Positions 19,235 to 20,626 of a stretch of 64,000 bases of DNA are shown here, one piece after another. A model generated the notes under the pieces. That model saw nothing but the letters and a program-made list of their open reading frames with translations, was not told the DNA's origin and searched no databases. The DNA is from an uncultured Acidobacteriota bacterium (GTDB taxonomy: Bacteria > Acidobacteriota > Vicinamibacteria > Fen-336), in assembly GCA_902826455.1 (NCBI GenBank), contig CADEEV010000001.1:424983-488982 (forward strand), in the 5' to 3' direction. The position numbers and the translations under genes are program-made. Position 1 is the stretch's first letter. Each line of letters begins with the position of its first letter.

Positions 19235-19884
19235 TCGAGACCCGCGGGCACGTGGAGGTTGAGCAGCACCGGCACCGCGAGCCCCAGCAGGTTGGCGCAC
19301 GTGTGCCCGACGATCGTGAAGCGCAGGCTGCCGGTGCGGGCGTAGGCGAGCGACCAGACGATCCCGACGAGGGCGAGTCCGACGAGGGCCGCGGGCTTCG
19401 CGAGAGCGGCGCTGTGGACGCCCCAGATCCAGGGATGGCTGACGGCGAACGCCACGCTCGAGTAGACGATGCCGAGACCGAACGGCCAGCCCTGTGTCGC
19501 CTCGACCAGCAGGCCGCGCCAGTAGCCTTCCTCGAACCAGGGATTCACGAGGCCGAAGACGAGCCAGCTCGCGAGCACGAGCGGCGACTCGAGCGTGCGC
19601 CAGGCCACGAGGATCTCGCGGAGCGAGAAGAGGCCCATGGCCACGGCGAGAACGGACCAGAACCACGACCCCGACGGCCGCGCGAGCCAGCGCCGCCACG
19701 GGGCCTCGCCGCCGCCCCAGGCGATGAAGCCCGCGATCGCTCCCCAGAACACGAGCATCGTCGGCGCCCACGCCCACACGCCCAGGAAGCGGCCCGCGAC
19801 GCGCTCGACGACGTGGCCGAGCGCGATCAGGACCACCGGCGAGGCCGCCACGAGCCAGCGGCGCGCGATGCGCAGGCGGAGCAT
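19231..19884 (-). CDS. CPBP-family intramembrane protease
   Basis: A 217-residue polytopic protein with the three CPBP (Abi/Rce1-like) active-site motifs in order: EEGYWRG (EExxxR, about residue 117), FAVSHPW (FxxxH) and HTCANLLG (HxxxN). These residues form the glutamate-type catalytic site within the membrane. The substrate is unknown. The ATG lies exactly 7 nt after a TATAGT -10 box, so the mRNA is predicted to be leaderless. The box overlaps the -10 of divergent pdxJ. YjbR follows with a 4-nt overlap. Confidence 0.9.
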
Positions 19885-19891
19885 GGGCAGG

Positions 19892-19899
19892 ACTATACT
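19892..19899. promoter_or_regulatory. Bidirectional promoter with overlapping -10 boxes
   Basis: ACTATACT reads TATACT on the plus strand (19894-19899) and TATAGT on the minus strand (19892-19897). Exactly 7 nt separate each box from its ATG (pdxJ at 19907, CPBP gene at 19884). One symmetric sequence thus appears to start two leaderless transcripts. Confidence 0.65.
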
Positions 19900-19906
19900 C
19901 CCCGCA

Positions 19907-20626
19907 ATGGCTCAACTCGGCGTGAACATCGACCACGTGGCGACGGTGCGCCAGGCACGGCGCGTCGCCGAGCCCGACCCGGTCCACGCGGCGGTCCTCG
20001 CGGAGCTGGGCGGCGCCCACGGCATCACGGTGCACCTGCGCGGCGACCGCCGCCACATCCAGGACCGCGACGTCGAGATCCTGCGGGCCACGGTCAAGAC
20101 GCGCCTCAACCTGGAGATGGCCGCGACCCAGGAGATGGTCCGCATCGCCCTCACCATCAAGCCCGACCAGGTGACGCTCGTGCCCGAGCGGCGCGAGGAG
20201 CTCACGACCGAAGGTGGCCTCGACGTCGTGCTCAACAGCGTGCAGTTGAAGCCGGTGGTGAAGACGCTCCACGACGGCGGCATCCGCGTCAGCATGTTCG
20301 TCGACCCCGACCTCGAGCAGGTGAAGGAATCGCACCGCATCGACGCCCAGGCCGTGGAGATCAACACGGCGGCCTACGCCGACGCCCGCGACGACAAGAG
20401 CCGCGAGGCCGCCCTGCGCAAGACGGTGGACGCCGCCCGGCTCGCGAAGCGCCTCGGGCTGCAGGTCCATGCCGGCCACGGCCTGACCTACCGCAACGTC
20501 GGTCCGCTGGCCGCCGTCTCGGAGTTCTCGGAGCTCAACATCGGCCACAGCATCGTGGCCCGCGCGGTGCTCGTGGGCATGGAGCGCGCGGTCCGCGAGA
20601 TGTTGGACGCCATGGGGGCGCGGTAG
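19907..20626 (+). CDS. pdxJ: Pyridoxine 5'-phosphate synthase
   Basis: Last ring-closing step of the DXP-dependent vitamin B6 pathway, using 1-deoxyxylulose-5-phosphate and 3-amino-2-oxopropyl phosphate. The 239-residue TIM barrel begins [15 protein letters not shown] and shows [46 protein letters not shown] and the C-terminal [11 protein letters not shown] and [13 protein letters not shown]. The ATG is 7 nt after a TATACT box, so leaderless. PdxJ often sits near ybbR/glmM in related bacteria; here a few genes intervene. Supplies PLP needed by HemL. Confidence 0.98.

Follow-up and report, generated by a model that had tools for sequence, protein, structure and literature searches.

A 22-bp gap between pdxJ and a CPBP protease-like gene as a probable minimal bidirectional promoter for two leaderless mRNAs

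In the window, the 64,000-nucleotide stretch of a 5.26-Mb, GC-rich Vicinamibacteria-type MAG that was analyzed, two divergent genes are separated by 22 bp. The plus-strand gene (19907‒20626) is pdxJ, which encodes pyridoxine 5'-phosphate synthase. Its product matches PF03740 (1.5e-99) and the NCBIfam model for pyridoxine 5'-phosphate synthase (8e-107), and the assignment is certain. The alignments with PdxJ homologues begin at residue 1 or 3, which makes the start codon sensible. The minus-strand gene (19231‒19884) encodes a CPBP intramembrane protease-like (CPBP/Rce1-like) protein, a sound assignment (PF02517, 1e-14). Among 193 genomes of the class, this protein has one homologue (genome G004, locus L138; 64% identical), which is located at a different genomic place. 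Since the N-termini of the two proteins are equally long up to a common RRW motif, the CPBP ATG at 19884 is supported. The GTG start of a YjbR-family gene (18842‒19234, minus strand) overlaps the CPBP stop codon (GTGA), and this gene is probably carried as the second gene of the minus-strand transcript. The yjbR gene and a plus-strand antiporter gene are convergent, and their 3' ends overlap by ~89 bp (18842‒18930). Downstream of pdxJ lies a gene for a Stp1/IreP-type PP2C phosphatase (20660‒21421, plus strand), which adjoins pdxJ in most of the family.

The intergenic region, GGGCAGGACTATACTCCCCGCA (19885‒19906), would serve on its two strands as the entire promoter region for the CPBP gene and pdxJ. 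Together with the start codons, positions 19882‒19909 read CAT GGGCAGG ACTATACT CCCCGCA ATG, where the A of the CPBP ATG on the minus strand is at 19884 and the pdxJ ATG starts at 19907. These 28 bp hold the putative promoter, both predicted start sites, and both start codons. The core is a symmetric ANTATANT element, here ACTATACT (19892‒19899, both strands), and contains both -10 boxes: TATACT of pdxJ on the plus strand (19894‒19899) and TATAGT of the CPBP gene on the minus strand (19892‒19897). The two boxes overlap by 4 bp (19894‒19897), and each is exactly 7 nt from its ATG. The letters, coordinates, overlap, spacing, and gap length given in the preliminary description were all found to be correct when the sequence was read again. 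The pdxJ box is the sole plus-strand TANNNT between 19586 and the ATG, and on the minus strand the CPBP box is likewise the sole TANNNT in the 322 bp upstream of its gene; the ~300 bp upstream of either gene contain no further TANNNT box. No sigma70 -35/-10 pair was detected by a promoter and terminator scan of the region, and both a -35 element and an extended -10 are absent on both sides of the gap. Neither gene is preceded by a usable Shine-Dalgarno sequence; on the CPBP side, the nearest purine-rich stretch, GGGGAG, has its end 14 nt upstream of the ATG, outside the usual Shine-Dalgarno spacing.

We consider that the 22 bp form a minimal bidirectional promoter for a housekeeping (sigma70-type) sigma factor that yields two leaderless mRNAs, and we assign this sequence-based reading a probability of about 0.78. 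The single ANTATANT core would supply the overlapping -10 boxes on opposite strands and could be bound by a sigma70-type polymerase in either orientation. Rightward transcription would begin at the A of the pdxJ ATG or next to it and produce a leaderless pdxJ mRNA; leftward transcription would begin at the A of the CPBP ATG (19884) or next to it and produce a leaderless CPBP-yjbR mRNA. The canonical 7-bp rule predicts start sites 21 bp apart; should transcription begin exactly at the A of both ATGs, the distance would be 23 bp. From the positions and context of the boxes, these start sites and activity in both directions are probable, and both mRNAs are probably translated as leaderless mRNAs.

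Since a TANNNT leaderless signature is found genome-wide, the 7-nt spacing between box and ATG is near the norm here. In the sampled portions of the genome (0.85, 1.64, and then 2.44 Mb), where genes were called by codon statistics, TANNNT occurs at a frequency of ~0.6 per kb per strand. At gene 5' ends, it peaks at a distance of 7 nt upstream of candidate ATGs (27 of 742, against a background of ~4), and no such peak was seen at internal ATGs. When the start calls were blind to the signal, TANNNT was located at 6‒9 nt in 87 of 422 divergent starts, while each of seven motifs built in the same way gave only 6‒19. A heuristic estimate of the leaderless share is 216 of 1406 called genes (~15%); in a survey of TANNNT leaderless genes, three Acidobacteria averaged 13.3% (Zheng et al. 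2011, PMC3160421).

The symmetry itself has to be read with care, since a box that starts with TATA needs only one extra A to acquire its mirror, and the second box is not independent of the first; a mirror box is present at 12 of the 23 TATANT boxes of divergent starts. This low cost would suit a one-way leaderless promoter for pdxJ in which TATA symmetry creates the mirror box as a side effect and the CPBP gene is poorly expressed or transcribed from within pdxJ. The accessory nature of the CPBP gene, which occurs in only one other of the 193 class genomes, would suit it as well. We find such a one-way promoter unlikely: the only candidate minus-strand box in the 322 bp upstream of the CPBP gene has the standard leaderless spacing, and symmetric boxes lie between divergent genes more often than asymmetric ones do. 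ANTATANT occurs at 14 sites in 1.64 Mb and at 16 in 2.44 Mb, and 15 of these 16 are in divergent gaps (p ~1e-7 relative to the share of intergenic bases), whereas only 39 of 66 asymmetric TATANT boxes outside genes lie between divergent genes (Fisher p 0.008). In the independent set, ANTATANT occurs at only 2 sites, each of them between divergent genes. An overlapping antisense box accompanies 35 of 76 divergent leaderless starts compared with 22 of 90 co-directional ones (p 0.005). AT-rich palindromes of the same size but of other kinds are rare. The symmetric box is cheap to gain, yet it occurs at places where it would be of use.

The two remaining alternatives give the intergenic box a lesser role. 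pdxJ could be transcribed mainly by read-through from glmM or the antiporter gene, as it would have been in the ancestral operon, antisense to yjbR and the CPBP gene, with the box being of minor importance. The position of glmM directly upstream of pdxJ in relatives is in line with this reading, as is the scan, which found no terminator-like site from the antiporter gene to pdxJ. We nevertheless regard it as very unlikely, since ~1 kb of opposing genes intervenes and pdxJ lacks a Shine-Dalgarno sequence but has a -10 box at the leaderless spacing. It is extremely improbable that the box is an AT-rich chance occurrence with no promoter function. The short motif and the absence of -35 elements would fit this reading, but TANNNT is rare at the frequency given above, and all 14 of 14 ANTATANT sites fall outside the called genes, although these cover ~93% of the sample. 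The bidirectional promoter of two leaderless genes, as proposed in the preliminary description, is well supported by its context, namely the leaderless signature, the symmetric boxes in divergent gaps, the relatives with the same layout, and the lack of any other -10 box.

In contrast, the description of the arrangement as extreme was overstated, given about 12 comparable compact double-box pairs in 1.64 Mb and same-box 7/7 pairs across the class. With signal-aware starts, 12 compact divergent pairs with gaps of 18‒26 bp have boxes on both strands in 1.64 Mb, a count that depends on the choice of starts, since these start calls reward -10 boxes; with blind start calls, boxes are present on both sides in only 3 of 8 pairs with 15‒30 bp gaps. 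Six of the 12 pairs have a common TA in ANNNTANNNT, and three, including pdxJ/CPBP, have ANTATANT. Other compact divergent pairs with a common -10 core are located in the same genome, for example, at C5:60844‒60868, C3:226134‒226159, and C5:4283‒4307, and these other pairs are mostly of the ANNNTANNNT form, with the central TA alone in common. The pdxJ/CPBP arrangement is real, was correctly read, and is probably functional, but within this genome it is of an ordinary kind.

The same layout recurs in relatives. In the 193 class genomes, CAT-N7-ANTATANT-N7-ATG has 12 matches compared with 2 for the reversed control, and substantial reading frames are present on both sides in 10 of the 12. The matches are unrelated gene pairs, such as glycogen-synthase-like/ATP-grasp-like, argininosuccinate-lyase-like/penicillin-acylase-like, and tyrS/metallophosphoesterase (named by inspection of the translations). 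At locus L184 (1501‒1528, genome G030), a perfect palindrome, CATGGGAGGGATTATAATCCCTCCCATG, lies between the glycogen-synthase-like and ATP-grasp-like genes, each 7 nt from the box. Two of the pairs were each found in two species, where 21 of the 22 intergenic bases are identical; the flanking coding DNA (300 bp) is 80‒87% identical in one pair and 68‒71% identical in the other, tyrS/metallophosphoesterase. In family f16 (loci L224‒L253), 28 of 30 tyrS genes have TANNNT 4‒11 nt from the start, and in 13 of the 30 a divergent metallophosphoesterase gene starts 21‒27 bp away, with a box on both strands in 11 of these 13. The 28 tyrS genes are leaderless-like, and many f16 tyrS loci contain a strongly conserved TATAGT-A-GCGGC stretch. 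Together, these findings suggest that selection acts on this type of promoter as a class, not on the pdxJ/CPBP promoter in particular. Two further searches carry little or no weight: when the class genomes were searched with the ANNNTANNNT core at 7/7, the result was noisy, with a high control as well, and was dropped as evidence, and the phylum-wide search included AT-rich genomes, in which chance matches are common.

On balance, we favor the view that double-leaderless bidirectional promoters, with one symmetric -10 core and start codons ~21‒26 bp apart, constitute a recurrent, selectively maintained class of divergent gene pairs among the Vicinamibacteria and further GC-rich bacteria with many leaderless genes, of which pdxJ/CPBP would be a recently formed example. 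Such a class of shared-box pairs is a more interesting outcome than the single locus.

The gene order in the family suggests how this example may have formed. In most family genomes, glmM lies directly upstream of pdxJ and the PP2C gene downstream, while in genus g10 pdxJ is divergent from the PP2C gene instead. Since the antiporter, yjbR, and CPBP genes are located between glmM and pdxJ in the window alone among the family genomes compared, the divergent arrangement is lineage-specific within this set. The CPBP-pdxJ pair is absent from all family genomes compared, and no family orthologue of the locus with the exact CAT-N7-ANTATANT-N7-ATG layout was found. The antiporter/yjbR/CPBP block (17188‒19884) looks like a lineage-specific insertion. 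Insertion of this gene block is probably the origin of the divergent arrangement: the block would have split pdxJ from an ancestral glmM-pdxJ operon, and pdxJ, cut off from the operon, would have needed a promoter of its own, resulting in the present arrangement. Such loci suggest how a displaced gene gains a promoter at small sequence cost.

The preliminary description also considered that two polymerases cannot occupy the gap at once and that the two genes would be expressed in competition. Steric exclusion of two polymerases at bidirectional promoters has been stated by the Warman/Grainger group (PMC10268837, PMC12825309). However, since the basal activity of five tested E. coli bidirectional promoters was too low for competition (PMC12825309), we advance mutual exclusion or competition at the 22-bp gap only as a hypothesis. 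Since leaders and -35 elements are absent and a separate operator would have no room between the genes, such loci could provide clean natural tests of polymerase competition.

Divergent starts of bacterial bidirectional promoters are 7‒25 bp apart, and distances of 18, 10, and 23 bp are common (PMC10268837, PMC12825309). As in the symmetric -10 bidirectional promoters of these studies, the -10 boxes of pdxJ and the CPBP gene overlap on opposite strands, and the predicted distance of 21‒23 bp falls within the published range, close to the 23-bp class. In the commonest published geometry, 18 bp, positions -7 and -11 coincide, whereas here -7 lies 3 bp from the opposite -11; the 18-bp geometry is preferred but not obligatory, and other spacings are within the published definition (PMC10268837, PMC12825309). 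A further difference is that both mRNAs are predicted to be leaderless here. In this respect, the locus resembles the TANNNT leaderless genes (PMC3160421) and the Deinococcus genes with a -10 motif adjoining the ORF (PMC12340547): the box lies directly before the start codon, and neither a Shine-Dalgarno sequence nor a -35 element is present. Unlike those genes, two predicted leaderless genes share one box, and a term search of the two papers found no mention of divergent leaderless pairs. The nearest individual cases differ in several features. In Bradyrhizobium csoR-cueA, the -10 elements partly overlap and csoR is leaderless by RACE mapping, but cueA has a 42-nt leader and -35 elements are present (PMC5057107); the CsoR operator covers the boxes there, whereas no operator was recognized at pdxJ/CPBP. 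In M. tuberculosis lysG-lysE, the promoters overlap and lysE has a separate leaderless start (PMC5648196). In the open-access literature, to which our search was limited, we found no publication on a divergent pair with both genes leaderless. The pdxJ/CPBP locus is probably a very compact, though not unique, case of the known bacterial bidirectional promoters. In near-minimal form, it would unite two documented phenomena: the symmetric -10 bidirectional promoter and the TANNNT leaderless mRNA.
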